Of a stretch of DNA of 64,000 nt, positions 2,737-31,153 are shown piece by piece; within the stretch, counting starts at the first letter, position 1; every line of letters begins with the position of its first letter. Both the position numbers and the translations under genes were made by a program. Under the pieces are notes generated by a model. That model saw nothing but the letters and a program-made list of their open reading frames with translations. It had not been told where the DNA came from and did no database searches. Source of the stretch: Bacteroidota bacterium (GTDB lineage Bacteria; Bacteroidota; Bacteroidia; JACCXN01); the NCBI GenBank assembly GCA_013696965.1, contig JACCXN010000072.1, positions 1 to 64,000 of the forward strand, given 5' to 3'.

Positions 2737-2930
2737 AATAGTTTTTAAATTAATAAATAATGATTCTTTTCAAACACCTACGATAAAAAAGCCAGTTTGG
2801 ATTTTACCGGGAAACTTTTCTTTAAAATATCATGCCCATTTAAAAAACCCTTGGCCAAAAACATCAATGCCCTTTATTATAATATTGGATATTAAGGGAA
2901 AGTTTTTTGATTTTTAAACAATGAGAAATT

Positions 2931-2970
2931 ATTCTACTAAACGGGGAGTTAATTTCCCGTTTAGTAGAAT
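2931..2970 (-). terminator. terminator of the sigma-factor/lipid operon
   Basis: A perfect 15-bp inverted repeat (ATTCTACTAAACGGG / CCCGTTTAGTAGAAT) with a 10-base loop sits 17 bases after the last gene of the minus-strand operon. A short T-rich tract follows on the minus strand. It separates the operon from the CHRD gene. Confidence 0.75.
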
Positions 2971-2986
2971 AATCTTCTAATGGATA

Positions 2987-3442
2987 TCAGAAACCCAATT
3001 TTAAAATAATCCTTTTGATGAGGTGAAACAATATAAAAAACAGTGGTATACCAATTATTAACCAAGCCGTAAGGGCATGAAGGGTAGGCCAAAACAAAAG
3101 GGAAATTGCCTGGGCCGGATCTTTTGAAAACAGTTCAAAAATATCACCGATTGAAACCGAAAAAGAAGAGGCATTAAAAATTTTTTCTCCTAAAAACATA
3201 AAAGGTATGTATAAAGCAAATTGCAAGGGGTAAGCAAATTGGTTTACAAGCATAATGGCCAAAGGGTTCAGGCGGAATGCCGCAATAGCGATTAAGCAAA
3301 GGATAGTAGAGGATCCGAAAAGGGGTATGATGGCCAATATGGTTCCGAAAGTAACGGCCAGGGAAAGTCGGGACGGAGAAATACCCTGTTTTAACAATAG
3401 GGTCAGCGGCTGTAACAGTTTTTTCTGAAGATATTTTTTCAA
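2987..3442 (-). CDS. DUF2062 membrane protein
   Basis: This 151-residue protein has the DUF2062 pattern: a basic N-terminus, GISPSRLSLAVTFGTILAIIPLFGSSTILC, a membrane segment ending in NPLAIMLVNQ, and two further hydrophobic segments near the C-terminus. The function of the family is unknown; some members sit next to glycosyltransferase or lipid genes. The start is a TTG directly abutting the stop codon of the glutathione peroxidase gene, so the two are almost certainly translated from one transcript. It is the last gene before the operon terminator. Confidence 0.8.
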   Translation of the reverse strand: MKKYLQKKLLQPLTLLLKQGISPSRLSLAVTFGTILAIIPLFGSSTILCLIAIAAFRLNPLAIMLVNQFAYPLQFALYIPFMFLGEKIFNASSFSVSIGDIFELFSKDPAQAISLLFWPTLHALTAWLIIGIPLFFILFHLIKRIILKLGF

Positions 3443-4006
3443 TTAAAGAAGTTCTGTTAATTCACTGCTCATAGGATTTGTTTTCGAATAAAACACCTTT
3501 ATCAATTTACCAGATCCATCTAAAAGGTATTTCTGAAAATTCCATTTGACAGAAGAATCAAATTGTCCGTTTAGCTCTTTTACAGTTAGCCATTTATAAA
3601 GCGGGTGCTGACCTTTTCCCTTTACAATGATTTTTTGTGTCAGGATAAAAGTAATACCAAAGTTCTTCTCACAGAATGAGGCTATTTCTGCTTCGTTCCC
3701 GGATTCTTGTTTTAAGAATTGATTACAGGGAAGCCCGATTACCACCAACTTTTCTTTATAATATTCATGCAGCTTTTGTAAATCTTTATATTGTTTGGTA
3801 TAGCCGCATTCCGATGCTACGTTTACCAGTAATATCTTTTTCCCCTGGAATTTGCCCAACTTAAAAGGTTCCCCTTTTATATCTGTTAATTCTATATCAT
3901 AAACGGAAGAGGGATTGTTAGTCGCCACAAATTTATTATCTACGTCTTTCAACAGAAAAATAGAATTTATCATTATGAGTATTGAAAATAATTTGAGTAT
4001 AGCCAT
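3443..4006 (-). CDS. glutathione peroxidase family protein (cysteine type), exported or membrane-anchored
   Basis: This thioredoxin-fold peroxidase reduces hydrogen peroxide or lipid hydroperoxides. Seen in the sequence are the active-site block NVASECGYT with cysteine in the peroxidatic position, LPCNQF with a likely resolving cysteine, and the WNFQKYL block with the conserved Trp and Asn. The first 20 residues (ILKLFSILIMINSIFLL) form a hydrophobic signal or anchor that cytoplasmic BtuE-type enzymes lack, so this one probably works in the periplasm. It starts 17 bases after the methyltransferase stop and abuts DUF2062. In an operon of lipid-modifying enzymes under an ECF sigma factor, a role in detoxifying lipid peroxides is a reasonable inference. 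Confidence 0.9.
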   Translation of the reverse strand: MAILKLFSILIMINSIFLLKDVDNKFVATNNPSSVYDIELTDIKGEPFKLGKFQGKKILLVNVASECGYTKQYKDLQKLHEYYKEKLVVIGLPCNQFLKQESGNEAEIASFCEKNFGITFILTQKIIVKGKGQHPLYKWLTVKELNGQFDSSVKWNFQKYLLDGSGKLIKVFYSKTNPMSSELTELL

Positions 4007-4023
4007 GGTTGGTGGTTTATTAT

Positions 4024-5265
4024 TTACATATTTTTGTTGTTAGGCCTTGAATAGACCATTTGCATTACATTGATATTACGCATCAGAAAAGCGGCCTCGC
4101 AATAGCACATATAATAATTCCACTTCCTTTTAAAGGTATTGTTGAATCCAAGCCTGTTAATGTTGTACCAGTTGGAATTGAAAGACTCCAGCCAGAAACG
4201 AAGTGTTTTTGCATAATGAAGCCCCATTTCCTCCAAATTAACAAGTGTGAGATCGCTTGTGTTGTTAACTGCTTTATTGATTGCAGCAATGGAAGGCAAT
4301 AAAGAGCCTGGAAAAATATATTTTTGTATCCAGTCCACATTGCCCCGTAAACTCTCATATCTACTATCTGGACAGGTAATTACCTGCAACCCTAACAAAC
4401 CATCTTTCTTCAACAGGTGATGGCATTGCCTAAAATAGGATTCCAGGAAATTATGCCCTACTGCTTCAAGCATTTCAATGGAAACAATCTTGTCATAAGA
4501 ACCTTTTAGTTCCCTGTAATCCTGGAGAAGAACCGTTACCTTATCCTCAAGCCCTGCCAGTTTTACTTTTTCACATGCCATTTTATGTTGTTCCTCAGAA
4601 ATAGTGGTAGTTGTTACCCTGCATCCGTATTTTCCGGCCATATAAATGGCATTGCCGCCCCAGCCAGTTCCTATTTCAAGAACATGATCAGAAGATTTTA
4701 ACTTAACCCTCCTACAAAGGGCTTCATATTTTGCATATTGGGCTTCTTTCAAAGGCATATCGTCTTCTTTAAAATAAGCAGAGGAATAGGTCATTGTTTC
4801 ATCCAAAAACAGCGAAAAGAAATCATTGTTCAGGTCGTAATGGTCGCTGATGTTTTTTCTTGAGCCATTTAATGTATTAGAGCGAAAAAAATGCTTGTTG
4901 ATGTTGAAAAATTTCAGCACGTTCACTGAAAACATATTCAGCTTGTTTCCTGAAATTGTGGGTGCATTATCAATATTGGACAAGAACCAGGAGATAAGAT
5001 TGGTTATGTTTGTTGATTCCCAGTCCCCATCCACGTAAGCTTCTCCAAAACCCACATCTCCATATAAAACACATTTTTTAAAGAACTCAGGCCTTGTTAT
5101 CCTTATGTCTGCCTGTAACGTTTCAGCCGTATTGCCGGTAGCTATTGTTTCTCCGTTCGGTAGCGTTATTGTTAAATTTCCTGTTTGCATTTTTTGAAAA
5201 ATCTGCAAAACAATATTTTGCCAGATATTTTCCTTCCTTTTTAAAATAATACTTGCAGCTTTCAT
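4024..5265 (-). CDS. cfa: cyclopropane-fatty-acyl-phospholipid synthase family methyltransferase
   Basis: This SAM-dependent enzyme of the CFA synthase (Mycolic_acid_cyclopropane_synthase) family acts on double bonds of membrane phospholipid acyl chains. Features are an N-terminal lipid-binding region (VGFGEAYVDGDWES), the DHYDLNNDFFSLFLDETMTYSSAYF block, the SAM motif VLEIGTGWGG, SIEMLEAVGHNF, and a C-terminal YMCYCEAAF block matching the conserved cysteine region of the family. I chose the second in-frame ATG (5265). The earlier ATG at 5295 touches a hairpin and would add ten poorly conserved residues (MTVKKINYIH). Length (413) fits the family. It is a full-length CFA synthase, unlike the second methyltransferase in the same operon, and may make cyclopropane or methyl-branched acyl chains. 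Confidence 0.88.
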   Translation of the reverse strand: MKAASIILKRKENIWQNIVLQIFQKMQTGNLTITLPNGETIATGNTAETLQADIRITRPEFFKKCVLYGDVGFGEAYVDGDWESTNITNLISWFLSNIDNAPTISGNKLNMFSVNVLKFFNINKHFFRSNTLNGSRKNISDHYDLNNDFFSLFLDETMTYSSAYFKEDDMPLKEAQYAKYEALCRRVKLKSSDHVLEIGTGWGGNAIYMAGKYGCRVTTTTISEEQHKMACEKVKLAGLEDKVTVLLQDYRELKGSYDKIVSIEMLEAVGHNFLESYFRQCHHLLKKDGLLGLQVITCPDSRYESLRGNVDWIQKYIFPGSLLPSIAAINKAVNNTSDLTLVNLEEMGLHYAKTLRFWLESFNSNWYNINRLGFNNTFKRKWNYYMCYCEAAFLMRNINVMQMVYSRPNNKNM

Positions 5266-5294
5266 ATGTATATAATTTATTTTTTTAACTGTCA

Positions 5295-5359
5295 TCCCGA
5301 TTTATCGGGATAGCCATGCTGTATTCATTAGCGTTTGTGAACGGTTCGTGCATGGCTAT
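5295..5359. repeat. intercistronic hairpins between DUF1365 and cfa
   Basis: Two inverted repeats occupy the 78-base gap inside the operon. TCCCGA-TTTA-TCGGGA (5295-5310) overlaps the first possible cfa start codon, and ATAGCCATGC / GCATGGCTAT (5310-5319 and 5350-5359) encloses a 30-base loop. They could set relative expression or protect mRNA; without a U-tract they are not standard terminators. The first also resembles a short palindromic filler repeat common in this phylum. Confidence 0.5.
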
Positions 5360-5373
5360 TTCATAATTTAGCG

Positions 5374-6171
5374 TTATTGATGATGAGGACGGTAAACATC
5401 CTGTTGTAATTCTTTATGTTCAGATTTTTTATGGTATGGTAATTTTTTTAACAGTAAAATAACTGCCTGCCAATGGATCAGGGTAATCACTTTTAATGTG
5501 ATAAGCGGAAAACGAAAGGCAAAGCGAAAAACATTGTAATTGGTCAAAGACTTTCTTTTGCCTGTAAGGGTGCTTACAAAAAAACGCTCCCCATCTTTAT
5601 GATCATCAATCCGGATATTTAATTTTTCAGAAGGGACTCCTAAATTAAAATCAAATTGGGTATCGTGGTCGATGAAAGGCGAAACATAAAAATATTTGGT
5701 GGTGTTTAGATGAAATATATTGCGCATATAATTTTCAGGGCCTATAAAGTAAGGCTTCATCTCACGGAAGGTATTGCAGGTTTCCACTATGGTGCAAATG
5801 GGTTGGTTTTCATTGTTAAAGCAGTAATATAAGGATACGGGGTTAAATTGATATCCTAAAGTGCAAAGATTGGTCAACAACATTATTTTGCCATCTTTAA
5901 TATCAATCCCTTGTTCTTTCAGGTAACCGGAAATTTGCTCTTTTGTGTTTTTTGATGTGTCGGGCCTTTTTGCAGGAAACTGCAAGTGATCGGCATCCCT
6001 GAAATTAAAATAATTAAAGCGGTTGCGACTTATCAGCAGGATTTTTTTTGTTATTTCGTTAATCTCATCCAGGTCTATATAAAACATAAAAATACTATAG
6101 TGAAACCGATTTTGTTTTGGTTTCAGCCGGTTATGCATAACCGTACATTTATATAGGCAGGAATTCTTCAT
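5374..6171 (-). CDS. DUF1365 domain protein
   Basis: This 265-residue protein matches the DUF1365 family throughout: the start CLYKCTVMHNRLKPKQNRFHYSIFMFYIDLDE, FNYFNFRDADHL, the LLTNLCTLGYQFNPVSLYYCFN block, ETCNTFREM, and a C-terminal FRFPLITLKVITLIHWQA segment. Its biochemical activity is not known to me, but genes of this family recur next to COG2907 flavoproteins and CFA-type methyltransferases, as here. The start codon overlaps the stop of the upstream flavoprotein gene by one base (TAATG on the minus strand), indicating translational coupling. Confidence 0.88.
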   Translation of the reverse strand: MKNSCLYKCTVMHNRLKPKQNRFHYSIFMFYIDLDEINEITKKILLISRNRFNYFNFRDADHLQFPAKRPDTSKNTKEQISGYLKEQGIDIKDGKIMLLTNLCTLGYQFNPVSLYYCFNNENQPICTIVETCNTFREMKPYFIGPENYMRNIFHLNTTKYFYVSPFIDHDTQFDFNLGVPSEKLNIRIDDHKDGERFFVSTLTGKRKSLTNYNVFRFAFRFPLITLKVITLIHWQAVILLLKKLPYHKKSEHKELQQDVYRPHHQ

Positions 6172-7487
6172 TAAGCGCTAGTTAAACTTTTACTGAATAA
6201 TGGAGTTTCATATTTTTTCACTTTCGGGTGGTTCTGGCCAAGGATTTTTTTGCATAATTCCACGGAACTTGTAAAAGCATCTTCGTGAAAACCGTATCTG
6301 AAATAGCTTCCGCAGTAAAAAACAGGACCTGACTCATTTAACTTACCCAAGCTTTTTTGTGTTTCCATTGCTTTAACCGTAAAGATAGGATGGTCATATT
6401 CAATCACTTTAATGGTTTTTTTGGGGTCTACATTTCCAGGATCATTTATAGAAACAAAGTAATTTTGATTTTGGGAAACCTGCTGTAAACTGTTCATGAA
6501 ATAAACAGTGGAGGGCGAAAGTTTGCCTTTTTTACTCTCAATCCGGTAGTTCCAGGAAGACCATGTCTTTTTGTTTTTAGGCATTACCGAAGAATCGGTA
6601 TGCAATGTGGCTATGTTTTTTTGGTAACTGAAATTGCCGAGCATGGCTGTTTCCTGTTTAGTCGGGTTCTCCAGTATTGGCAACACCTGATCTGCATGAC
6701 AGGCGAAAATCACCTGGTCAAATTCATAATGGTTCCCGCTTTCAGATATTACTGTTACCTTATTATTCTCTTTTCTGATCACTTTTTTTGCACCTTCATT
6801 GATTTTAATCTTATCCTTAAATGATGCAACAAGCCTTTCCTTGTATTCTTTGCTTCCTCCCGAAACCGTGTACCATTCATGCTGGGTATCCAACCCGAGA
6901 AACCCATGGTTTTTAAAAAACCTTACAAGTGCGATTGCCGGGAATTGCATACTGATATCGGTAGGTGTTGACCAGAGTGCAGAACTCATCGGCAACAGAT
7001 ATTTGAACATCATATCAGCGCCATAATTTCTCTTTTTGATGTATTCATACAAGCTATCGTTACTGAATTCCGATGATTCCATGTCAATCACGCTTTGTTT
7101 GTTAAAGCGGTTAATTTGCATCAGCATTTTTAAGTGACCAGGGTTGAAAAAATTTTTTCTTTGGGCAAAAAGGCCATCAAAGCCTGTTCCGCTGTATTCT
7201 AACCCACTCGGAAGATGCTGAACACTAAAGGACATAGCTGTTTTTTTTATAGGCACCCCGAGTTCTTCGAACAAAACAATAAGGTTTGGATAGTTAACTT
7301 TGTTGAAGACCATAAAACCAGTATCAATAGGTATATTACTTCCATTTTCATTAACGTCTATCGTATTGGTATGGCCACCAACATAATTGTTCTTTTCAAA
7401 AAGGGTAATCTCCTGATCGTCTTGCAGGAAATGTGCACAAGCCATACCCGATATTCCTGTTCCTATAATCGCTGTTTTTATTTTCAT
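6171..7487 (-). CDS. COG2907-type FAD-dependent oxidoreductase (amine-oxidase fold)
   Basis: This flavoprotein has an N-terminal Rossmann FAD site (AIIGTGISGMACAHFL, then LFEKNNYVGGHT with the ribose-binding Glu) and the family blocks IDTGFMVFNKVNYPNL, SALWSTPTDISMQFPA, YTVSGGSKEY, and a C-terminal GPVFYCGSYFRYGFHEDAFTSS that closes over the flavin. The ATG at 7487 is preferred to a TTG two codons earlier. COG2907 proteins are clustered with DUF1365 and CFA-like methyltransferases in many bacteria and are thought to act on acyl chains, though the reaction is not established for this protein. It overlaps DUF1365 by one base. Confidence 0.88.
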   Translation of the reverse strand: MKIKTAIIGTGISGMACAHFLQDDQEITLFEKNNYVGGHTNTIDVNENGSNIPIDTGFMVFNKVNYPNLIVLFEELGVPIKKTAMSFSVQHLPSGLEYSGTGFDGLFAQRKNFFNPGHLKMLMQINRFNKQSVIDMESSEFSNDSLYEYIKKRNYGADMMFKYLLPMSSALWSTPTDISMQFPAIALVRFFKNHGFLGLDTQHEWYTVSGGSKEYKERLVASFKDKIKINEGAKKVIRKENNKVTVISESGNHYEFDQVIFACHADQVLPILENPTKQETAMLGNFSYQKNIATLHTDSSVMPKNKKTWSSWNYRIESKKGKLSPSTVYFMNSLQQVSQNQNYFVSINDPGNVDPKKTIKVIEYDHPIFTVKAMETQKSLGKLNESGPVFYCGSYFRYGFHEDAFTSSVELCKKILGQNHPKVKKYETPLFSKSLTSA

Positions 7488-7608
7488 GGGCAATAATCGT
7501 TTACCGTCACATGGAATTGTTCATTCCATAATTGTTTTTGCAATGTATTGTGTTTGTAAATATTGATTTACTGATTTTTACAGAAAATTCATGTATAATG
7601 ATTTTAGC

Positions 7609-8316
7609 TTATGGGCCTTGTTCAGGATAAATAAGCCGTGCCAGGTAATTCTTTCCCGAGTTATTGCTCAGGTTGGATTTTCCTTCATAAATCAATATCC
7701 GCTTTGTTGCCATATCATAAGTAATGGAAATGGGATCAGAAAGCCACCTGAACATTACATTGTTCGGTTCTACTATAACCTTGGCTTTATCGTTACCAAC
7801 AGAACCATCCTTTACTAACCTTGCCCTTAATTGAAAATAATTAAGTTCGGATGACACCGTAAAATTAAATACGAGCACCTTCCCTTCCATCAACTCCGAC
7901 CAATGGTCTTTTATATAATAGTTAAACCCACCATCAACAGTAAAAGGTTCCGGCACCGTTAGGGTCTTTTCACGGATTGGCTCCTTCTCATTCGATTTTA
8001 CAAATAGCCTCACCTTGTTTCCGTCCACAATTGCCCCTTCCTGGTATCCTGTTAGCAGATCGGAAGTTTTAAAATCGGGGGTGTGCCTGGATTTTGAAAA
8101 ATCAAGGTTTCGCTGAGCTACCAATTTGTTTTTGGAATCATAATATTTTGTTTCGGTGCCGGCATGTTTTCCATTTTCAAACATTTCGGTGTGTGTTTCT
8201 TTGTAAATAAATTTTTTGGAACCTATCTCATATGCATAGCCTGAATACGTTTCTGTTTTTAAGCCGGTTGCCTGGCCTAATGCATAAGCAACGATAATAA
8301 TTAAAAACTTCCCCAT
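7609..8316 (-). CDS. uncharacterised exported protein of the lipid operon
   Basis: I do not recognise the family. The 235 residues begin with a short hydrophobic signal-like segment (MGKFLIIIVAYALGQATG). A soluble, beta-rich region follows with no cysteines and no catalytic motif. Phrases such as YKETHTEMFENGKHAGTETKYYD and PFTVDGGFNYYIKDHW suggest a lipocalin- or DUF-type beta barrel handling a hydrophobic ligand, but this is only an impression. It starts five bases after the methyltransferase gene, so it belongs to the operon. A comparable small exported protein (DUF3833) occupies this place in proteobacterial versions of the cluster. Confidence 0.75.
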   Translation of the reverse strand: MGKFLIIIVAYALGQATGLKTETYSGYAYEIGSKKFIYKETHTEMFENGKHAGTETKYYDSKNKLVAQRNLDFSKSRHTPDFKTSDLLTGYQEGAIVDGNKVRLFVKSNEKEPIREKTLTVPEPFTVDGGFNYYIKDHWSELMEGKVLVFNFTVSSELNYFQLRARLVKDGSVGNDKAKVIVEPNNVMFRWLSDPISITYDMATKRILIYEGKSNLSNNSGKNYLARLIYPEQGP

Positions 8317-8321
8317 TTCCG

Positions 8322-9353
8322 TTATGGTTTTTTATTAAAAAGATAATGGCTTACCATCCATTCATTTCCTCCGTTAAAGCCCCACAACTCGGCACACGAC
8401 ATAAAGAATATCCTCCAATACGCCAACCATAGCATTCCTTTGTCTTTTCCATAGGTTTTGTTCATGATGGGTATAATTTTTTTCTTGTTTTTATCCATAT
8501 TTTCCAACCAAGCCTCTGCGGTTTTGCTGTAGTTGATGCCATTTACCCTCCAATGCTTGTTTTTTTGGAAGTGGTCGTCAAAATAAAACAGGAGATCATC
8601 GCTAGGCATAATTCCCCCTGTAAAAAAATATTTGGACATCCAGTCGCTCTCGTCCTTTACTTCAAACTTGTAAGCATATTTATGGTGGGTAAAAATGTGT
8701 ACGAACAGCTTTCCATCTTCCTTAAGCCATTTCGATATATTTTTCATTAGTTTCTGATAGTTTCGCATGTGTTCGAACATTTCTACGGAAACCACCCTGT
8801 CAAATCTTTTTTCTATGTCAAACGTATTCATGTCAGCAGTAATAACTTCCAGGTTTTTCAATTTCCTTTCTGCTATTTGTTTATCGATATGTATTTTCTG
8901 GGTGCTTGAATTTGAAACAACGGTGAACCTGCTCGAAGGAAAATTCTGGGCCATGAAAAGAGAAAGAGAGCCCCAGCCACAACCTAATTCCAAAACATCC
9001 TGTCCTTCCTTTAAATCTGCTCTTTGACAAGTTAGTGCCAGCATTTCACATTCTGATTCAATCAGACTAGTAGCGTTGTTTTCCCAAGATCCGCAACTGT
9101 ATTTCATATATGGTCCTAGCACATATTTGAAAAACTCCGTTGGAAGCTCATAATGCTGCTCGTTAGCAGCTTTGGTATTAACAGCTATGGGGTTTTCTTT
9201 GAGTTCATCAACTAAAAAACCAATGTGTTTTTTAAGGTCATGCCCTGAAGCATTTTCTTCCTCCCGGAGCCTTTGGATCAATAATTTTTTGATGTTTTTT
9301 CTGATCAACCGTTCAGGGACCAAATTATTGGAAAGTAGTTTATCGTACCACAT
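8322..9353 (-). CDS. second CFA-family SAM methyltransferase (coclaurine N-methyltransferase-like branch)
   Basis: This SAM-dependent methyltransferase has the blocks AANEQHYELPTEFFKYVLGPYMKYSCGSW, motif I VLELGCGWGSLSLFMA, VVSVEMFEHMRNY, FTGGIMPSDDLLFYF and FFMSCAELWGFNGGNEWMVSHY. It belongs to the CFA synthase superfamily but lacks the long N-terminal lipid-binding domain of the other enzyme in this operon, and it is closer to the coclaurine N-methyltransferase-like branch. The ATG at 9353 is preferred to the TTG three codons upstream. Two divergent paralogues in one operon suggest successive or different methyl transfers to acyl chains. The substrate is unknown. Confidence 0.85.
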   Translation of the reverse strand: MWYDKLLSNNLVPERLIRKNIKKLLIQRLREEENASGHDLKKHIGFLVDELKENPIAVNTKAANEQHYELPTEFFKYVLGPYMKYSCGSWENNATSLIESECEMLALTCQRADLKEGQDVLELGCGWGSLSLFMAQNFPSSRFTVVSNSSTQKIHIDKQIAERKLKNLEVITADMNTFDIEKRFDRVVSVEMFEHMRNYQKLMKNISKWLKEDGKLFVHIFTHHKYAYKFEVKDESDWMSKYFFTGGIMPSDDLLFYFDDHFQKNKHWRVNGINYSKTAEAWLENMDKNKKKIIPIMNKTYGKDKGMLWLAYWRIFFMSCAELWGFNGGNEWMVSHYLFNKKP

Positions 9354-9418
9354 GTTTAACAAGCTTTTTTTTAAACTTACGTGTGGTTTTCTTATTTGGA
9401 TTTGAAAAATGAAAAAAT

Positions 9419-10285
9419 TTATTCTTTTTCTGGAAAATAAGGTTCTTTGAGAAAAGAAAGAATATCCCGGCCCATAGGGTTGTTCCTGAAATAAAGCTGG
9501 GCGATCATTCCGAAATGATTTCTTCCTTTTATTACTTTTAATGAGCAGAAGTTACCGGATTCATTGAGCTTATGGCAGAACATTTCGCTACTTTCAGAAA
9601 TAGTTTTATACGTTTTAGATCCTGTAAAAACGAGAAAAGGAACAGATCCTTCTTTGGGGATATGATAAATCGGGGAGGCCTTTCGCCATATACGGGGATC
9701 GGTTGTAAAAACTGCTCTTAAAGATTTGCTATAATTATTGTTGTATTGTTCAAAATAAGAAACCATATCCAGACCAAAGGCATCAATAAGTATGGTCTTT
9801 TTTATAGGGTTGTTAAGGTTTAAATCTTTAAACGTATTTCCTAAAGTAATTAAAGCGACAAGATGGCCCCCGGCCGAATGCCCTGCAACAGTTATTTTTT
9901 TAGGATCGCCACCGAATTTTGAAATGTTTTTGTAAACCCAGTCTGTTGCAGCAGCACAGTCCTCTGCCATCTTATCATATTTAACGGAAGGACTTAAACG
10001 GTAGTTTATCAAAACCGTAACAATGCCTTTTTTTGCCATTCTATTACCGATAAAATGAAATCGGTTTTTACTTCCTGTGTTCCAACTGCCCCCGTGAACA
10101 AATACTAAAACCTCTCTTTTGTTTTCGCCAGGTTCTGGATAAAAAATATCCAGGATATGCCTGTCAGGGTCAAATTCATTAAGGGTTTTATCCTTGTATG
10201 GAATATCTTTCGACTTACGGATGTTTGTGCTCCATAAAAAGGAGGTAAGAAAAATCGGAAGGGTCAACAATACCACGCTTTTCAT
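9419..10285 (-). CDS. alpha/beta hydrolase, esterase/lipase type, exported
   Basis: This carboxylesterase-like hydrolase has the oxyanion-hole motif HGGSWNTG, the nucleophile elbow AGHSAGGH, DPRIWRKASPIYHI, and a C-terminal GRNHFGM supplying the catalytic histidine. An N-terminal hydrophobic stretch (VVLLTLPIFLTSFLW) indicates export or membrane anchoring. I chose the ATG at 10285 because it gives the classic four-base ATGA overlap with the DUF1295 stop; the open frame extends five codons further. It could release or remodel fatty acyl chains in the envelope, but the substrate is not predictable from sequence. Confidence 0.85.
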   Translation of the reverse strand: MKSVVLLTLPIFLTSFLWSTNIRKSKDIPYKDKTLNEFDPDRHILDIFYPEPGENKREVLVFVHGGSWNTGSKNRFHFIGNRMAKKGIVTVLINYRLSPSVKYDKMAEDCAAATDWVYKNISKFGGDPKKITVAGHSAGGHLVALITLGNTFKDLNLNNPIKKTILIDAFGLDMVSYFEQYNNNYSKSLRAVFTTDPRIWRKASPIYHIPKEGSVPFLVFTGSKTYKTISESSEMFCHKLNESGNFCSLKVIKGRNHFGMIAQLYFRNNPMGRDILSFLKEPYFPEKE

Positions 10286-11070
10286 TTTATTCTGAACCAA
10301 GGGAAAAATGCATTCGTTGTTTTTTGATAGTTAATATATGCTTCTCCTTTTGATAAAACTGCCAGTTTCTCCAACATAGGAATGCCTGTTACATTATTCA
10401 ATAAAAAATACATACTAATGGGTGAAGTTAAAGCCAGCCAGCCAAAAGGAGAGGATAATGCATAAACGGCAAAGCCGACCCATATCAGCCATTCGAAAAA
10501 ATAATTGGGGTGGCGGGAATATTTCCAAAGTCCTTTTTGACAAACTTTTCCTTCATTTCCACTTTCTTTTTTAAAAGATTTAAGTTGTTTGTCTGCCACA
10601 CTTTCCCCAACAAACCCTACCAACCAAATGGTAGAACCGGAGATCTCAAAAAAAGAAACAGAGGAGTCCTGATCAATAAAAACCAACAAAAAAGGAATTG
10701 AAAGCAGCACGTTTGAAAATGCCTGGATTAAAAAAAACGACAGCATGTTACGATTGGCATTTTTTCCGTATCCTTTTCTCAATAAAGCATATCTTATGTC
10801 TTCTTTATTTCGGTGAAAAGAGTTTCGGATCAATAAATAAGTTCCAAGCCTTATGCTCCAAAACATTACCATGGCTATTAATAAAAAAATCCTGATAGAA
10901 GAACCTAAGGTTAGAAAATAAAAAAGAACGATCAGAAAAGTAAAATTATAGGCCCACCAGGCATCTACTATGCCGGCATTTTTTGTTTTTAATTGCCTTA
11001 GCCATACAATAAACAGTACCGATGAAGTAAGCAATAGCCCCGATAATAGCATTTTAACAATAAGCAACAT
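10282..11070 (-). CDS. DUF1295 integral membrane protein (steroid 5-alpha-reductase-like)
   Basis: This polytopic membrane protein has about seven hydrophobic segments and the family signature GLWKYSRHPNYFFEWLIWVG near the C-terminus, preceded by IVDAWWAYNF near the N-terminus and ending ALTSPISMYFLLNNVTGIPMLE. DUF1295 belongs to the steroid 5-alpha-reductase/ICMT superfamily, whose members reduce double bonds or methylate in the membrane. The ATG at 11070 is preferred to an upstream start that adds 14 non-conserved residues. With two methyltransferases and a flavoprotein, a lipid-reducing step is plausible but unproven. Confidence 0.85.
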   Translation of the reverse strand: MLLIVKMLLSGLLLTSSVLFIVWLRQLKTKNAGIVDAWWAYNFTFLIVLFYFLTLGSSIRIFLLIAMVMFWSIRLGTYLLIRNSFHRNKEDIRYALLRKGYGKNANRNMLSFFLIQAFSNVLLSIPFLLVFIDQDSSVSFFEISGSTIWLVGFVGESVADKQLKSFKKESGNEGKVCQKGLWKYSRHPNYFFEWLIWVGFAVYALSSPFGWLALTSPISMYFLLNNVTGIPMLEKLAVLSKGEAYINYQKTTNAFFPWFRIK

Positions 11071-11190
11071 TATATTTATATAAGTTTTTTTACAAAAAAG
11101 AAGACAGAACAAATTTAGGAAGACGGGAATTATACAGAATTTAACTGGGTATAAAAAAAATGGTATATCCTTAAATTTAAATAAATTCTA

Positions 11191-11529
11191 TTAATTATTT
11201 TGTTTGATGAGCAAATCTTTTATACTCTCCTTTTCCTTTAACTGAAACAGTTCTTTTAATATGTAGATACAGGTGGCTACACTTCCCAGCAGAATCAAGA
11301 GTATTAACCACAATATCTTCTTATAGTGCTTTTTTTCTTTGTAAGCTATCCAAAGAAACAGCGCTGCTACATTGGCATAGAAATCAATAAGGGTAGCTTT
11401 CATCCAGGGTATTCGGATTAAATCCGGAAGTGCTTCAAAAAGATTGCTTTGCAGGCTTGTTTGTATAATGGTGAAAACCATTCCAATTAAAAGGATGGAA
11501 AAGAGGAAAATCAATAAGTTTTTTAGCAT
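11191..11529 (-). CDS. small DUF1475-like membrane protein
   Basis: A protein of 112 residues with three hydrophobic segments. The central phrase IPWMKATLIDFYANVAALFLWIAYKEK resembles DUF1475 or DUF2834 proteins (W-x-ATL-x-D-x-Y...WVAYKE). The function is unknown. It lies between the anti-sigma factor and DUF1295, with gaps of about 75 and 120 bases, in the same orientation, so operon membership is likely. The internal ATG at 11529 gives the better N-terminus. Confidence 0.65.
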   Translation of the reverse strand: MLKNLLIFLFSILLIGMVFTIIQTSLQSNLFEALPDLIRIPWMKATLIDFYANVAALFLWIAYKEKKHYKKILWLILLILLGSVATCIYILKELFQLKEKESIKDLLIKQNN

Positions 11530-11603
11530 GGCAGATATAAAATATATCATATATACGCTAAAAGAAAAGAGTTGGATTTTTAAAGAAGCAGAAAAAACGG
11601 AGA

Positions 11604-12446
11604 TTATACTTTTCCAAGCACAAACATTTCTTCCATTGTAGGAGAAGGAGATCCTCCCTTTTTCTCTAAGGTTACCGCAAATGCCTGGGGGTTTTCAACC
11701 TGTTTCATTTTTTGCAGCGTTTCCAAACGATATTCAAAAACACCCATGTCCACCGGCTGGCCTTCCACAATTGCCCATAGTTGGTATTGTTTTCCGGAAG
11801 GGGGCTCGGGAAGGTTGTTTAAGCTTAAATAAACACTGTTGTCAGAGGGATTGAAGTAAACAGAGGTAAGTCCGTCAGGTGCTTTGTTCTCAAGGCCTTT
11901 TAATAGCACTTTTATGTTGTTCGGGTCTTTCACAACAGCGAGTTCTTCTTCTGTGTTGTTTAAATTTTCCTGTAGGGAGGATAGTGATGCCGAAACGGCA
12001 TTTCTTTCTTCTGTTATATTTGTGATCTGTTGCTTTTGTCCAACATAATTCCTGTATAGGTTATAAGAGAACAAACCTGTTGCTATCAAAATTGAAACAG
12101 AAGCAGCGACAGCCAATTTAAGATAACCGGTTTTGGCACTTTCTGTTTTCACGTTATTGCCTGCATCATTAATTGAGATAATCTTTGATTCAGGCCCCTG
12201 TTTCTTTTTTTGCTGCTCTTCTATTTCTTCAACTTGCTTAAAAATTTTGTCTTTCAGAGTGGGGGGAGGTGTTGTTTGATGGGAAAAGGCATATCCTTCC
12301 ATGGCACTTTCAAATCTTGAAAGTTCCTGTTTTATTTCAGGGTAAATATGAGACATACATTCTACCTCACGCCTCTCTTGATCAGAAGCCTGTCCTAAAA
12401 TATAGTCCTCCAATATTCCGGAAGATATGTAACTTTTTACATCCAT
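11604..12446 (-). CDS. RskA-type anti-sigma factor
   Basis: This transmembrane anti-sigma factor has an N-terminal sigma-binding domain (SGILEDYILGQASDQERREVECM) facing the cytoplasm, one membrane helix (about residues 108-130, LKLAVAASVSILIATGLFSYNLY), a coiled coil (about 140-170) and a C-terminal RskA domain (KQYQLWAIVEGQPVDMGVF). It would hold the neighbouring sigma factor inactive until an envelope signal triggers its release by proteolysis. There is no HxxxCxxC zinc motif, so it differs from ChrR/ZAS-type anti-sigmas. Its ATG directly follows the sigma-factor stop codon. Confidence 0.92.
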   Translation of the reverse strand: MDVKSYISSGILEDYILGQASDQERREVECMSHIYPEIKQELSRFESAMEGYAFSHQTTPPPTLKDKIFKQVEEIEEQQKKKQGPESKIISINDAGNNVKTESAKTGYLKLAVAASVSILIATGLFSYNLYRNYVGQKQQITNITEERNAVSASLSSLQENLNNTEEELAVVKDPNNIKVLLKGLENKAPDGLTSVYFNPSDNSVYLSLNNLPEPPSGKQYQLWAIVEGQPVDMGVFEYRLETLQKMKQVENPQAFAVTLEKKGGSPSPTMEEMFVLGKV

Positions 12447-13013
12447 TTAATTGAATAATTTCCTTAATTCTTTTAATGCGGCCCTTACCCTCGTTTTAAC
12501 AGTTCCCAACGGAATGTTTAATTCTTTTGACGCCTCCTCATGGGTGTAACCTGAAAAATAGATTGCATGGATTACTTTTTGATACTCAGGGCCCAGTTTA
12601 TTTACAACTTCCCTCATTCCTATTGTTTGAATATTGTTTTGATGGTTTTGGCTTTTATCAATAGTATATACGCTCTGATCGATATCTTGGATTTCGGGCC
12701 TTGTTTTTTTACTGCGTAATTTATCTATGGATTTATTCCTGGCAATATTAAGCATCCAGGTAAACAGTGAACCTTTCTTTGCATCATAGCTCTCCATTGC
12801 CTGCCATATTTTAACAAATGCTTCCTGAAGAACATCTTCAGCCAGTTCCTGGTCGGACAGTATTTTTATGACGACCCCGAACAAGGCGCCTGAATATTTA
12901 TCATACAGATAGCTGAAAGCTTCTTTGTCTTTCTTTTTTAAAAGATCAACCAGCTCCTGCTCACTGTATGTTTTTTTGTTTTTTAACAAAGATTTTAATT
13001 TTGGGCCGGGCAA
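12447..13013 (-). CDS. ECF-family RNA polymerase sigma factor (SigK/RskA-partner type)
   Basis: This sigma-70 family ECF factor has region 2 (AFSYLYDKYSGALFGVV through LAEDVLQEAFVKIWQAMESYDAKKGSLFTWMLNIARNKSIDKLR) and region 4 (LGPEYQKVIHAIYFSGYTHEEASKELNIPLGTVKTRVRAALKELR). It heads the operon and probably activates its own promoter. The open frame begins with a TTG that overlaps a promoter-like TATATTTG, so translation may really begin at the TTG at codon 9; no ATG is available early. The downstream genes suggest its regulon includes membrane-lipid modification. Confidence 0.92.
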   Translation of the reverse strand: MPGPKLKSLLKNKKTYSEQELVDLLKKKDKEAFSYLYDKYSGALFGVVIKILSDQELAEDVLQEAFVKIWQAMESYDAKKGSLFTWMLNIARNKSIDKLRSKKTRPEIQDIDQSVYTIDKSQNHQNNIQTIGMREVVNKLGPEYQKVIHAIYFSGYTHEEASKELNIPLGTVKTRVRAALKELRKLFN

Positions 13014-13018: not shown

Positions 13019-13771
13019 CATTTTTTCACATTCATCCGAAACTTTTTATAAACCCCATTAAAATCCTCTGTAATTACTGATTTCATTGAAATAGCAATGA
13101 ATTATTTCTGAAAACATCTCCTTTTTTTTGTTCCTATGGCTTGTCCCTGAATTTGCACAACACTTACCTCCAATTGCCACCGTTAATCCAAAAATGTAGT
13201 CTGTTTTTAAGAAGTAACTGATTTTAAATAATCCATTTGAGATTTTATAAAAAGCTCCTGTGCATTTATGATTTCAAGGTGCTTCCTGCCTATTATTGTA
13301 TTGTTTAATTACTGTTACAGAATTATACTGTCGCTGGCATTTCAATTGGCAAATTGGCAATGAAAGGTCTGCCTAGTTAGAAATTTAAAACAAAAAAGGG
13401 AATAGTATATTTTAATGGAAAAATAAAATAGCCATTATTACTCAGGTGTTTAAAATTATTGTTTAAGAGGTAATTAAATCGACCAAAGTGTTTGAAATTT
13501 GGTTTTTACACTTTTTGAGTGCTTTGCGTAACCTTTGCGAACTTTGCGGTTAAATACCAAAGATACTAACTTAAATCGTTATATATCAATAACTTAGCGA
13601 ATCCACAAAAAGAATAGGAACTTGGCTTTTTTATCGTAATTAAAGATTCGAATTTTTATGCTGTAGAACCAAATCCACAAGTTTCATAAATAAGCCCACA
13701 CCTTATTATTTATCTTCCCCTTAAGCAGCCGGAATTTCAGTCGGGAACAGATTTTGGTTTTACTCCAGGTA
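13019..13771. other. divergent intergenic region
   Basis: About 750 AT-rich bases separate the divergent sigma operon and glycan unit. No open frame with coding character was found. A filler phrase of the type ctttgcgtaacctttgcgaactttgcgg occurs at 13522-13550, a form of short repeat often seen between genes in this phylum. Promoters for both flanking units must lie here, but none could be fixed with confidence on the plus strand. Confidence 0.4.
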
Positions 13772-15640
13772 ATGAAAGAGTTTTATTTCAACCAGTTCGA
13801 CCACCGTAAGCCATATAAACCCGTAAAAGATAACATTTACAGGGCAAGGTTATTTCAGGTGGCCGGAATCCTGGCAATCATAGCAGGGCTGATTTACCTT
13901 TACTGGAGGTGGGCTTTTTCATTGAATTTTGATGCACTCTGGTTCTCACTGCCGCTGGCCATAGCCGAAACATTCTCCTTTTTGGGGATTTGCTTTTTTA
14001 TTTTCGATTTATGGCAAAATAAAGATGCAGCACAGCAACCAGCACCTCATTATTTATCAGAGGTGGAGGAGTTGAACGGGAGGGAAGACAGGCCCATTAA
14101 AATAGATGTTTTTATTGCCACTTTAAATGAAGAAGCAGAATTGCTAAGGTACACCATCAAAGATGCCAAAGCAATGGAATATCCTTTTGACGATATGCCT
14201 GTTCATATTTTTGTTTTGGATGATGGAAGGCGTGACGGGCGCAATATTCACAAGGAAAATATAAAAAAACTCTGCCAGGAGGAAGGTGTAAAGTATATTT
14301 CCAGGGAACATAACACCGGTTATAAAGCAGGAAATTTAAAAAACGGCATTGAACATACTTCTGGCGATTTTTTTGTAATACTTGATGCCGACAACAGGCC
14401 GTTTCCAGGTTTTTTAAAAAATACCCTTGGTTATTTCAAAAGGGAAAAAGTTGCCTGGGTGCAAACCTGCCATTGGTTTTATGATACCACAGAAACAATC
14501 CCTTTAAGTACCTACCTGATTAATGCCCTGGGCATTACTTCTGAAAAACTTAAGAAAGCAATTATTTTTTCAACAGGATATATTAATACTGGCGGAGATA
14601 TCTTCGGAAGTGAGCCAAGGCAGTTTTATGAGGTAATCCAACGTAGAAGAAACTTCCACAATGCGTCCTTTTGTTGTGGCGCTGCATCTGTTCACAGAAG
14701 GGAAGCGGTTATGGGCAATTCCATTAAATTATTCAGTGAATCCTTCAATGAAGGCTTTCTGCAGGGGAAAATGCAAAAGGACAACCAAAACCTTATGGCA
14801 AAGCGGATGGAATTAATCCAAAGCAAAGAATTAATGCCTTTTATGTTTCATGCCTCAGAAGACCTCTATTCTTCTATGGTTATCCACAGCGACAGTAAAA
14901 ATAAATGGGAGAGCGTGCTTCACCCTTACGTGGAAAGTAAGTTGCTTTCGCCACAGGATATGCAAACCTTTGTAAAGCAAAGGCTTCGCTATGCAGAAGG
15001 CTCTATTGACATCGCCCTCCACGACAACCCCTTATTCAAAAAAGGGCTTAGCTGGAGGCAAAAACTTTGTTATTTCCATACAGCCTGGGCTTATTTTTCC
15101 TGCATCTGGATACTGATATTCTTACTTAGCCCTATCGTATTTTTCTTTACGCATCAATTGCCTGTGGATTGCAGCTCTACAGAATTTTTTGCAGTATTCA
15201 TTCCTTTTTATTTCATCTATAAAATAGCCGAAACAGCAGGCTCCTGGGGAATCTCTCAAAAACGTGGCAGGCAGTATTATATATGCCTTTTCTGGATAAA
15301 CCTTCAGGCAATCATCAGTGTTTTATCAGGCAAGAAAGTGAAATTCACAGTTACGCCTAAATATAAGCAGCAGTCGCACCCGCTAAAACATTCCTGGCCA
15401 CATTTAACCATTATAATACTCACCGTTTCTGGTATCATTTTAAATGGAATACTGGTGTTTTTTGGAAGTGAAAATCTCTCATTTGGCATTACCATGAATA
15501 CTTTGTGGGGGCTTCATAATTGTTACACTTTAAGTGTTTATGTGCGCGCTGCGTATTGGGATACGGAATTATCCGGTGTTAAAGAAAAAGTTAAGGAAAT
15601 CGAGAGAAAATCATATAGACCTCTGGCGGTAGAAGCCTGA
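13772..15640 (+). CDS. membrane GT2 glycosyltransferase, cellulose-synthase-like
   Basis: This 622-residue processive-type glycosyltransferase has two N-terminal membrane helices (about residues 20-80) and a cytoplasmic GT2 domain carrying VFVLDDG (UDP site), VILDADNRP (DxD), HASEDLYSS (catalytic ED) and KQRLRYAEGS in the place of QxxRW. About five further helices follow from residue 430. It has no PilZ domain. Such proteins polymerise sugar chains from nucleotide sugars across the inner membrane. The ATG at 13772 is preferred over a TTG six codons upstream. The Tyr in QRLRY replaces the usual Trp. It heads a tight plus-strand unit with an esterase, a UDP-GlcNAc epimerase and a flavoprotein, which suggests an amino-sugar polymer. 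Confidence 0.88.
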   Translation: MKEFYFNQFDHRKPYKPVKDNIYRARLFQVAGILAIIAGLIYLYWRWAFSLNFDALWFSLPLAIAETFSFLGICFFIFDLWQNKDAAQQPAPHYLSEVEELNGREDRPIKIDVFIATLNEEAELLRYTIKDAKAMEYPFDDMPVHIFVLDDGRRDGRNIHKENIKKLCQEEGVKYISREHNTGYKAGNLKNGIEHTSGDFFVILDADNRPFPGFLKNTLGYFKREKVAWVQTCHWFYDTTETIPLSTYLINALGITSEKLKKAIIFSTGYINTGGDIFGSEPRQFYEVIQRRRNFHNASFCCGAASVHRREAVMGNSIKLFSESFNEGFLQGKMQKDNQNLMAKRMELIQSKELMPFMFHASEDLYSSMVIHSDSKNKWESVLHPYVESKLLSPQDMQTFVKQRLRYAEGSIDIALHDNPLFKKGLSWRQKLCYFHTAWAYFSCIWILIFLLSPIVFFFTHQLPVDCSSTEFFAVFIPFYFIYKIAETAGSWGISQKRGRQYYICLFWINLQAIISVLSGKKVKFTVTPKYKQQSHPLKHSWPHLTIIILTVSGIILNGILVFFGSENLSFGITMNTLWGLHNCYTLSVYVRAAYWDTELSGVKEKVKEIERKSYRPLAVEA

Positions 15641-15668
15641 AATAATTTAATTATTAATAAGAATAAAC

Positions 15669-16349
15669 ATGAACTGGGAAACATTAATGTGCTTCGGAGA
15701 TAGCATCACCATCGGGGCAAGAAGTTATTGCGGATATCCTGAATATGCCGGAAACCTTTTGGAAAAAAAACTTGGAAACAACTGGAATGTCATCAACCTG
15801 GCGGTGTGTGGCTATACCGCAATGGATTTGGCACGCTACATTAGCAGTAACTTTTCAAACCTAAAGCAATTTGAGCCAGGCATCATATCTATTTTGATAG
15901 GAACCAATGATGTAAAGAAAAACACCTTGCCTTCTGATTTTGAAATAGCATACCGGCAAGTTATCCTGAAAGCTTTGTTGCTTTCCTGCAACCGGAATGT
16001 GGTATTGATAAAATTGCCCTTTTTTCCTAAAAATGTAGCATATCCCTATAACTTCGGGATGAATAATAAAGTCGATTCATGCAATGAAATTATTGACCAA
16101 TTGGCTGTGAATTATAACCTAAGGGCCATGGAATTTCATTTAAATGATGCTGACCTTTTCGATGGGGTACACTTGAATGCAACTGGTTCAAAAAATACCG
16201 GGGCACAATTATCGCGCTTTATTGAAGCGGATAAAGGGCTGGTTCAAATAAAAGAAATTCCTGCAATGGCTAAAGATGCAATCGCAGGAAACATCTTAAA
16301 GGATTTTGTTGGAAATGATTTAAGCACTTTCAAAGCAAAAAATGGATAA
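15669..16349 (+). CDS. SGNH/GDSL-family hydrolase
   Basis: This 226-residue protein has the SGNH block I (CFGDSITIGARS) with the nucleophilic serine, a central GTNDVKKN (block III), and the C-terminal DGVHLNATG (block V) with Asp and His of the triad. It has no signal peptide, so it would act in the cytoplasm or at the inner face of the membrane. Enzymes of this fold often deacetylate or transfer acyl groups on sugars. It begins 28 bases after the glycosyltransferase and overlaps the epimerase by eight bases, so the three are co-transcribed. Its last 40 residues after the DxxH motif are not part of the core fold. Confidence 0.85.
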   Translation: MNWETLMCFGDSITIGARSYCGYPEYAGNLLEKKLGNNWNVINLAVCGYTAMDLARYISSNFSNLKQFEPGIISILIGTNDVKKNTLPSDFEIAYRQVILKALLLSCNRNVVLIKLPFFPKNVAYPYNFGMNNKVDSCNEIIDQLAVNYNLRAMEFHLNDADLFDGVHLNATGSKNTGAQLSRFIEADKGLVQIKEIPAMAKDAIAGNILKDFVGNDLSTFKAKNG

Positions 16350-17529
16350 AGCATTATTGGCAATAGGAACAAGGCCTGAGCTCATCAAGGTTGCACCCGT
16401 TATCCGGGAGATGGAAAAGCGTGGCCTTCGGGGACAATTAATCGTAGTAAATACCGGGCAGCATAAGGAGTTAATGAAAAACACCTTCCGGATTTTAGGA
16501 ATTGATGCAGACTATACACTCGATTTAATGATTCCGGGCCAAAGTTTAAATGAATTAACCGCCAGGGCATTGGTGCAGTTTCAGCAATTAATAGATGAAC
16601 TTCAGGTAAAAAATGAAAAACCTGCTATTTTTCTGGCCCAGGGTGATACCGCAACGGCTTTTGCAGCATCGGTTACTGCTTTTCATAATAAAATTCCATT
16701 TGCCCATATTGAAGCAGGTCTTAGGACAAATAACCTGGAGAATCCTTTTCCGGAGGAATATTACAGAAAAATCATCAGCCTGAATACGATGAAACATTTT
16801 ACCCCAACTATATCGGCAAGCAACAACCTGTTAACAGAGGGGATAAATCCAGAAAACATCATCATGACCGGAAATACGGTGGTTGATGCTATCGAATATA
16901 TTAAAAAAGTTCAGTTAATGGATGAAGTTGCAAAAGATTTAAAATTGCCAATGCATTACCTTAAACAGCAGAAAAACCTGGTGCTGATTACATGCCACAG
17001 GCGTGAAAATTTTGGGGCTAATATGGAAAATATTATAAAGGCCATTGGAGAATTGGCTCATGAAAACCCGGGCCATAATTTTGTTTGGCTGAGGCATCCG
17101 AACCCTTCTGTCCAAAAAAGCCTGGAACTAGCCAAAATTGGCGAACAGGCTAATGTTGCCATTATTGACCCGCTGGATTACTTTGACCTGGTAAGTATTT
17201 ACCCATTCATAAAGATTATGATTACAGATTCCGGTGGCCTGCAGGAAGAGGCGCCTACCTTTAAAATTCCGGTGATTATTTTAAGGGAAACCACAGAACG
17301 TATGGAAAGCGTACAAAATGGTTTTGCATTTTTATGCGGGGCAAACCGGGAAAAGATAAAAAATGCTTTTCAAGGCTGTGTTTTAAAACCGGTAAACATA
17401 ACCCATAACCCTTATGGGGATGGAAAAGCCTCGAATAGAATTGCTGATTTTCTCCAGGATTTCCTGAAGCCTGAAATTAAAATTATCATACAAAAAGAAG
17501 GTTATGAAGAATTGCACGCTAAAGTTTAA
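16342..17529 (+). CDS. wecB: UDP-N-acetylglucosamine 2-epimerase, non-hydrolysing
   Basis: This enzyme interconverts UDP-GlcNAc and UDP-ManNAc. Typical blocks are GTRPELIKVAPVI at the start, VNTGQHKELM, AQGDTATAF (catalytic Asp), HIEAGLRT and NPFPEEYYRK (catalytic Glu residues), CHRRENFG (His) and DSGGLQEEAPTFKIPV with RETTERMES, which bind the nucleotide. Length (395) fits the family. It overlaps the genes on both sides (8 and 26 bases), which argues for a dedicated pathway rather than a general housekeeping copy. The likely product, UDP-ManNAc, would feed the GT2 enzyme at the head of the unit. Confidence 0.9.
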   Translation: MDKALLAIGTRPELIKVAPVIREMEKRGLRGQLIVVNTGQHKELMKNTFRILGIDADYTLDLMIPGQSLNELTARALVQFQQLIDELQVKNEKPAIFLAQGDTATAFAASVTAFHNKIPFAHIEAGLRTNNLENPFPEEYYRKIISLNTMKHFTPTISASNNLLTEGINPENIIMTGNTVVDAIEYIKKVQLMDEVAKDLKLPMHYLKQQKNLVLITCHRRENFGANMENIIKAIGELAHENPGHNFVWLRHPNPSVQKSLELAKIGEQANVAIIDPLDYFDLVSIYPFIKIMITDSGGLQEEAPTFKIPVIILRETTERMESVQNGFAFLCGANREKIKNAFQGCVLKPVNITHNPYGDGKASNRIADFLQDFLKPEIKIIIQKEGYEELHAKV

Positions 17530-18838
17530 AACAGTTATTATTGGCGCAGGGCCTGCCGGCACAGGAATAATTTTTAATGCCATACGAAAGGGGAAGTTGA
17601 AGGAGCTATTAGAAGGTGGCCTTGCTTTTATTGAGTCAACAGGCAATTTTGCATCCGGTACTATCGGGAAGTACCTGGTTAATTCAGATTCTAATGGGGG
17701 AGTGTTTTTAGAATGTTTAAATGACACCGGCACCGATTGGTTTAACCATCTCCAAGCGGATGAAAAAGTTAAATCTATTGCAGAAATGGCATCCAATCCT
17801 GTTCCTCTGGAATTAGTGGGTGAATATTTACATAGGCTTGGAGCAGCATTAAAAAACATAATAAATGGTATTTCCCCTTCCGGAATTTTTCAAAATTCAA
17901 AGGCAATTTCTATCTATAAAGAAAAAAGCGGGCAATTTTTAGTTAAAATGCAAACAACAGAAGATGGCAAAGTAACAGAGCGCCTGATAGAAGCAGAATC
18001 CCTGGTATTTGCAATGGGTGGGAAACAGGATTTTGAGAATATGGCCAATAGCAGTATTACACCCTCATTAAAATTAAAAGAATTTGAACAGAAAATCTTC
18101 CTGACAGATGAATTTTTTACCGCTCCAGGACTATCAAAAGCGGAAGTATTAATTAGAAAAGCAAAATGTAATAAAGTTGTGGTCATTGGAGGCTCTCATA
18201 GTGCATTTTCATCCATTTGGCTGATGTTAAATAAAATGAATGGAATTGAATTTGAAAAAGCAGCCATTTCCTTAATTCACAGGGGAAAGTTTAAACTGTT
18301 TTATGAATCAAAAGAAAAAGCGTGGGCGGAAGGTTATGGTGATTTTACGGAAGCGGATATTTGCCCGGTAACGCAAAGGGTATTTCGGATGGGGGGCATG
18401 CGTGCCGATTCAAAGGACTTGCTAAGAAAACTTTTCGGCTTAAGCCATCAAAGGGAAGAAAGGATAGAACTGCTTGAAATTGATGATGGTGGCGATAATT
18501 CAGAAATTCTGAAAAAGAAATTGAATGAAGCGGCACTCATCATACCTGCTTTTGGTTATCAGCCTAATACCATTCCTTTATATGATGAAGCAGGAGTTGA
18601 GCTCATGTTTTCCCAAAAACCACTGGTCAACAAATACTGCCAGGTAATGGATGTTAATGGGAATACTATTACCGGGCTTTATGGAATTGGGCTTGCATCC
18701 GGCTTTTTACCCTGGGGTGAAATGGGCGGTGAAGCCAGTTTCAATGGGCAAACCAATAGTTTATGGGCATACCAGCACGGAATAGGGGAGTTAATTTTTA
18801 ACCAACTGATGAATGCCGGGAAAGTTATGGCGATATAA
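17504..18838 (+). CDS. FAD/NAD(P)-binding protein of unknown specificity
   Basis: This 444-residue protein carries an FAD site at the N-terminus (VIIGAGPAGTGIIF, about residues 11-24) and a second dinucleotide fold near residue 226 (VVVIGGSHSAFSSIW). A closing FAD block LYGIGLASGFLPWGEMGGE lies near the C-terminus. This two-domain plan resembles flavin monooxygenase or N-hydroxylase-like proteins (YdhS/SidA style), but I cannot name a close family. It overlaps the epimerase by 26 bases and ends the unit. A role in oxidising an amino sugar or its carrier is only inference. Confidence 0.8.
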   Translation: MKNCTLKFKTVIIGAGPAGTGIIFNAIRKGKLKELLEGGLAFIESTGNFASGTIGKYLVNSDSNGGVFLECLNDTGTDWFNHLQADEKVKSIAEMASNPVPLELVGEYLHRLGAALKNIINGISPSGIFQNSKAISIYKEKSGQFLVKMQTTEDGKVTERLIEAESLVFAMGGKQDFENMANSSITPSLKLKEFEQKIFLTDEFFTAPGLSKAEVLIRKAKCNKVVVIGGSHSAFSSIWLMLNKMNGIEFEKAAISLIHRGKFKLFYESKEKAWAEGYGDFTEADICPVTQRVFRMGGMRADSKDLLRKLFGLSHQREERIELLEIDDGGDNSEILKKKLNEAALIIPAFGYQPNTIPLYDEAGVELMFSQKPLVNKYCQVMDVNGNTITGLYGIGLASGFLPWGEMGGEASFNGQTNSLWAYQHGIGELIFNQLMNAGKVMAI

Positions 18839-26212: not shown

Positions 26213-26272
26213 TATCTTAAACTTTCAATTTTCTAAAAACCACATCCGTTAATCCGCTAATCATTTCATCCG

Positions 26273-27724: not shown

Positions 27725-27844
27725 AATTTACACTTTTTAATTTAAAATCTTATGCATTTTACCATCACCAAATCACTTTCCCGATTCGTACCTCAAATGG
27801 ATTTCGCTTCTCTCATAATCCGCTAATATCGCATCAGCAATTAG

Positions 27845-31131: not shown

Positions 31132-31153
31132 CTTTTAACTTTTAACTTTTAAT

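Follow-up and report, generated by a model that had tools for sequence, protein, structure and literature searches.

Furan fatty acids (FuFA) are made on phospholipid chains by UfaM, a SAM methyltransferase, UfaD, a flavoprotein desaturase, and UfaO, a DUF1365 protein that uses O2, and in R. palustris FufM adds a second methyl to give dimethyl furan fatty acids (PMC7380195). The activities of all four enzymes have been shown biochemically for R. sphaeroides and R. palustris (PMC7380195), and FuFA genes are included in the ChrR core regulon (PMC6852236). In R. sphaeroides, the pathway is controlled by the sigma/anti-sigma pair RpoE-ChrR.

The M. tuberculosis sigK-rskA locus (Rv0449c-Rv0444c) encodes a SigK/RskA-type pair and, we presume, also contains flavoprotein, DUF1365, ufaA1 and DUF1295 genes. 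Through the Rv0449c promoter, sigK regulates its own expression (PMC7509140), and the inducer of SigK/RskA systems has been described as obscure (PMC9861118). In M. kansasii, the SigK-type targets mpk83 and mpk70 are light-induced (PMC9861118), and in R. capsulatus the RpoE-ChrR equivalents that are induced by photooxidative stress are closer to M. tuberculosis SigK-RskA than to R. sphaeroides RpoE-ChrR (PMC7074977). The LitR/LOV light regulon of Pseudomonas includes UfaM, a FAD oxidoreductase and photolyase (PMC9758184), and in Chlamydomonas CFA1, CFA2, DUF1365, DUF1295 and GPX5 are all singlet-oxygen-induced in a SAK1-dependent manner (PMC4067076).

Results

The window, which is the whole 64,000-nucleotide stretch of Bacteroidota DNA that was analysed, contains twelve collinear ORFs on the minus strand between 2987 and 13013 (Table 1). 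The original prediction had described them, with identical coordinates, as a twelve-gene run forming a lipid-modifying operon linked to oxidative stress, and it was right in both respects. NCBIfam and Pfam concur with the family names that it gave, the Pfam matches above cut-off being sigma-70 r2/r4, RskA_C, DUF1475, DUF1295, BD-FAE hydrolase, CMAS (twice), amine oxidase, DUF1365, GSHPx and DUF2062. From the sigma gene to the DUF2062 gene the intergenic distances are 0, 53, 78, -19, 56, 5, 115, -1, 78, 17 and 0 bp, such that five of the joints overlap or are no more than 5 bp wide and the largest gap is 115 bp, consistent with the proposed coupling of most genes by overlaps and short gaps. To judge from this layout, the twelve genes are probably carried on a single transcript. 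Directly past the DUF2062 stop lies a hairpin with a stem of 19-20 bp and a poor T-tract (AAUAAUUUCUC); the strong terminator that had been proposed for this end is upheld as a stable hairpin, but not by its T-tract.

Just past the hairpin, on the same strand, 871-2736 encodes a secreted protein that combines four CHRD domains with a type IX secretion sorting tail, and at the window edge (27-398) is an ORF that, judged by eye, resembles an IS200/REP-type transposase. Divergent from the operon, on the plus strand, the 13754-18838 cluster begins with a glycosyltransferase family 2 gene and a GDSL lipase gene (both identified by Pfam) and continues with what appear, from the sequence only, to be UDP-GlcNAc 2-epimerase and flavoprotein monooxygenase genes. 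On the minus strand at 24140-32710 are the genes of five adjacent secreted proteins, the translations of which share near-identical C-terminal sorting tails, apparently a paralogous cluster.

Table 1. Features of the operon and its terminal hairpin, in the order of transcription
Feature	Coordinates	Strand	Evidence
ECF sigma factor, SigK-like, TTG start	12447..13013	-	Sigma70_r2/r4
Membrane anti-sigma factor with RskA_C	11604..12446	-	RskA_C 82.6 bits vs cut-off 29.4
DUF1475 small membrane protein	11191..11550	-	PF07343; beside DUF1295/FufM in several phyla
DUF1295 membrane protein, steroid 5-alpha-reductase-like	10282..11112	-	PF06966 214 bits
BD-FAE alpha/beta hydrolase, GHSAGG and HGG motifs, probably exported	9419..10300	-	PF20434
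FufM-type SAM methyltransferase, predicted furan ring methylation	8322..9362	-	45% identity and 100/100 clade with R. palustris PS3 FufM-like protein
Exported beta-rich protein, possible lipid carrier or sensor	7609..8316	-	no Pfam match
UfaD-type FAD desaturase of methyl-branched acyl chain (predicted)	6171..7493	-	Amine_oxidase; 37% identity over 423 aa to R. palustris PS3 UfaD-position protein
UfaO (DUF1365), O2-dependent furan-forming enzyme (predicted)	5374..6171	-	PF07103 245 bits
UfaM-type acyl-chain C-methyltransferase	4024..5295	-	99/92 clade with UfaM-position genes; E/A/Q signature
Cysteine-type glutathione peroxidase (GPx), hydrophobic N-terminus	3443..4006	-	GSHPx 127 bits
DUF2062 membrane protein	2987..3442	-	PF09835 36.8 bits
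Terminal hairpin, probable terminator	2926..2976	-	-28.1 kcal/mol, z -7.0 vs shuffles; weak T-tract

The four enzyme families and the adjacency of UfaD and UfaO are common to the window operon and to the FuFA pathway of R. sphaeroides and R. palustris. In the genome taken as R. palustris PS3, gene order matches RPA2569 ufaM-RPA2570 ufaO-RPA2571 ufaD and RPA0923-RPA0924 fufM, and DUF1295 and FufM are adjacent there. Unlike the arrangement in those organisms, however, the window genes form one compact twelve-gene operon that takes in DUF1475, the exported protein, GPx and DUF2062. Sigma control is likewise a feature of the R. sphaeroides pathway, but the window anti-sigma factor is of the RskA type, as in M. 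tuberculosis, rather than ChrR, and the phylum differs. In the Pseudomonas LitR/LOV system, UfaM, flavoprotein and SDR genes are under a light-responsive MerR-type regulator, whereas the window operon has no adjacent LitR-type regulator. The Chlamydomonas SAK1 response co-induces the same families, but is eukaryotic and involves no operon.

When bacterial and archaeal genomes were searched by profile, 80 loci were recovered; UfaM is linked to UfaO in 78 of them and to UfaD in 71, and FufM and DUF1295 are each present in 44. The loci span Bacteroidota, Ignavibacteria, Verrucomicrobiota, Gemmatimonadota, Acidobacteriota, Omnitrophota, Obscuribacterales, Nitrospirota and Proteobacteria, and in at least six phyla FufM and DUF1295 accompany UfaD-UfaO-UfaM. 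Within Bacteroidota the pathway has a patchy distribution, occurring in 7 of the 198 genomes sampled. Because UfaD-UfaO-UfaM, FufM, DUF1295, DUF1475, the exported protein and DUF2062 are similarly ordered in other phyla, the gene order is far from chance. A Rhodococcus plasmid, the sole Actinomycetota check, has the order hydrolase-UfaD-UfaO-UfaM-second CMAS-DUF1295; its second CMAS-family gene (L170:10823-12302) is unannotated, split over two frames and possibly broken.

Since the CMAS family covers both methyltransferases of the operon, a tree was needed to tell them apart. The 8322-9362 protein, originally described as a CFA-like methyltransferase, falls in the FufM-position clade (100/100), separate from the UfaM clade, refining the family assignment to FufM-type. 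It was matched to R. palustris RPA0924 through the PS3 locus equivalent, which lies beside DUF1295, and not through CGA009. By sequence score, the protein is closer to coclaurine N-methyltransferase (259 bits) than to E. coli Cfa (110 bits), and plant N-methyltransferases are its nearest solved structures. Given that several loci also carry the UfaD-UfaO-UfaM triad with no FufM-type gene, the operon might yield a monomethyl furan product, with this methyltransferase acting on another substrate, for example an amine of the kind that its relatives, the coclaurine N-methyltransferases, methylate. We regard such a division of labour as improbable: the protein groups with the R. palustris PS3 FufM-position gene, a FufM-type gene is linked to UfaD-UfaO-UfaM in many phyla, and the FufM-similar Arabidopsis protein AT4G33110 is a lipid-droplet protein (PMC10940516). 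The window DUF1295 protein is 34% identical to the DUF1295 protein of R. palustris PS3, where the fufM-like gene lies directly behind the DUF1295 gene. Among 44 loci with full flanks, DUF1295 is present in 26 of the 30 that have FufM versus 3 of the 14 that do not (Fisher p 4.5e-5, relatedness ignored), and we name DUF1295 as a likely partner of FufM.

The 4024-5295 protein was originally taken for a CFA synthase, an identity that is ruled out by its tree position and active-site residues. The tree places it with every UfaM-position gene in one clade (99/92), from which E. coli Cfa and the remaining CFA synthases are separate. At E. coli Cfa positions 236/240/266, where CFA synthases have G/H/H, it has E/A/Q; each UfaM-position protein that was examined shares this signature, and neither E. 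coli Cfa nor any of the other CFA synthases has it. Of the cyclopropane synthase residues C139, H240 and H266 (E. coli Cfa numbering), none is retained, S, A and Q standing in their place. We take some of positions 236/240/266 to lie in, or close to, the site of the bicarbonate base in CFA synthase, and the E/A/Q signature would fit methyl transfer without ring closure. The protein is 38% identical to R. palustris PS3 UfaM.

The UfaD and UfaO genes overlap, and the latter is the sole DUF1365 copy in the genome. Window UfaO is 30% identical to the R. palustris PS3 UfaO-position protein, and its residues H13, R15, D33, N133, K159 and H233 are invariant among 30 relatives. A PDB sequence search with the UfaO profile gave no matches, and the structural model (pLDDT 94) has only weak matches to nitrobindin/fatty-acid-binding-like barrels (Z 6.5, rmsd 4.7 over 134 residues). 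One methyltransferase of the operon groups with UfaM and the other with FufM, which favours a furan over a cyclopropane product; among the cyclopropyl, methyl-branched and furan acyl lipids that the original prediction had entertained, furan is thus the best supported. It could be argued from the CMAS homology, and from the 38% identity that E. coli Cfa also shows to the 4024-5295 protein, albeit at a lower score, that the operon makes cyclopropane or methyl-branched acids in the style of 10-methylstearate, in which case the flavoprotein would serve as a reductase and no furan would arise. This is highly improbable in view of the replaced G236/H240/H266, the tree position and the near-constant linkage to UfaO, an enzyme that acts after desaturation in furan formation.

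Several accessory genes also recur. Phyllobacterium has a hydrolase related to that of the operon next to ChrR, Chthoniobacter has one next to RskA, and homologues of the exported protein occupy the same position in five other loci (L015, L016, L042, L048, L049). The model of the exported protein (pLDDT 88) is most like DUF1849 (Z 11.9, rmsd 4.4 over 197 residues) and more weakly like LolA/RseB-type lipid-binding folds, which suggests a lipid carrier or sensor. A GPx also occurs close to FuFA genes at three other loci (L016, L089, L099), two of which are in gammaproteobacterial MAGs, and DUF2062 comes after UfaM in L015, L016, L042, L052 and L068. Many Bacteroidota FuFA operons are headed by a fatty acid desaturase; the window genome has an unlinked desaturase, on contig C19, with 55% identity to the operon-linked desaturase of relatives. 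In Pedobacter-type operons (L013, L014, L041, L044, L046, L047, L050), a desaturase gene and a mannose-6-phosphate-isomerase-like cupin gene come before the FuFA genes. That the same enzymes work on a Bacteroidota-specific lipid (an unusual unsaturated chain or sulfonolipid) to make a new furan-containing or other oxidised lipid, as the conserved DUF1475, DUF1295, exported protein and dedicated desaturase missing from the Rhodobacter set might imply, is likewise highly improbable, since DUF1295 and FufM are paired in alphaproteobacteria too and are hence not Bacteroidota-specific.

For the sigma factor, the best NCBIfam model is SigK (PRK09646) at 130.8 bits, below the cut-off of 226 for membership, and the nearest solved structures are R. 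sphaeroides RpoE and M. tuberculosis SigK. The anti-sigma factor scores 107.6 against a cut-off of 100 with the NCBIfam anti-sigma model, abuts the ECF sigma gene and is the only RskA_C protein in the genome, confirming the earlier assignment to RskA rather than ChrR. A ChrR-type sensor was rejected: the window protein has no Cupin_7 match, whereas the Ensifer ChrR control has Cupin_7. In Chthoniobacter flavus, an RskA pair followed by a BD-FAE hydrolase gene lies beside the FuFA operon. In the genomes of Bacteroidota relatives checked, no linkage of such a pair to the operon was found, and RskA, where present, is located elsewhere; the linkage is therefore lineage-specific apart from C. flavus. 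Alphaproteobacterial FuFA versions adjoin a ChrR pair, and other FuFA operons, including L015, L016 and L068, adjoin MerR regulators with B12-binding domains. In two of these, the regulators (L015:4582-5532 and L016:2462-3448) are LitR/CarH-like and divergent from the FuFA operon, an arrangement that suggests direct light control in these lineages. No sigma promoter motif was identified, and a scan with a consensus promoter was uninformative, giving fewer matches than in shuffles.

Discussion

The window most likely encodes complete machinery for making furan fatty acids from ordinary membrane fatty acids, switched by its own stress sensor. More specifically, we consider it likely that this is a dimethyl furan fatty acid operon that acts on existing membrane phospholipids under a SigK/RskA-type pair. 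The pathway is not undescribed, as had been suggested, because UfaM, UfaD, UfaO and FufM have already been shown biochemically (PMC7380195), nor do DUF1295 and the hydrolase mark an undescribed set, as both recur with ChrR-controlled versions. What is new is that in Bacteroidota a known pathway is found under an RskA-type pair, assembled with FufM, DUF1295, DUF1475, the exported protein and GPx.

Given the gene identities, clade memberships, active-site signature and linkage, we infer a furan product, its substrate, the inducer and the accessory roles as follows. By analogy with R. palustris, UfaM would methylate an unsaturated acyl chain with no cyclopropane closure, UfaD would add a second double bond, UfaO would insert an O2-derived oxygen to form the furan, and FufM would add the second ring methyl. 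DUF1295 and DUF1475 may help in a further, probably FufM-linked, step, and the contig C19 desaturase is a possible source of the double bonds in the substrate. Bacteroidota acyl chains differ from cis-vaccenate, and for this reason the predicted substrate is uncertain. FuFA are antioxidants that scavenge singlet oxygen; GPx could reduce lipid peroxides, and the exported hydrolase and the lipid-carrier-like protein might remove or move damaged acyl chains. Membrane oxidation would free the sigma factor from RskA, and the pair probably drives its own operon too. On the strength of the induction of the SigK/RskA-like pair in R. capsulatus and the light response of mpk83 and mpk70 in M. kansasii, we propose that the inducer may be light or singlet oxygen.

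FuFA have chiefly been found in a small number of alphaproteobacteria, in plants and in fish oils. Our prediction is that Bacteroidota, Verrucomicrobiota, Acidobacteriota and others would make dimethyl FuFA with a single compact set of genes, and such compact sets are on offer for heterologous FuFA production. The operon also suggests a testable stimulus for SigK/RskA systems. A bolder and rather unlikely extension is that SigK/RskA-type pairs are a second, ChrR-independent class of membrane photooxidation sensor, of which the ancestral target, across Bacteroidota, Verrucomicrobiota and mycobacteria, was FuFA synthesis. If so, RskA turnover would be set off by furan acids, or by products of their oxidation, as the signal, and singlet oxygen or light would be the unexplained stimulus of mycobacterial SigK.
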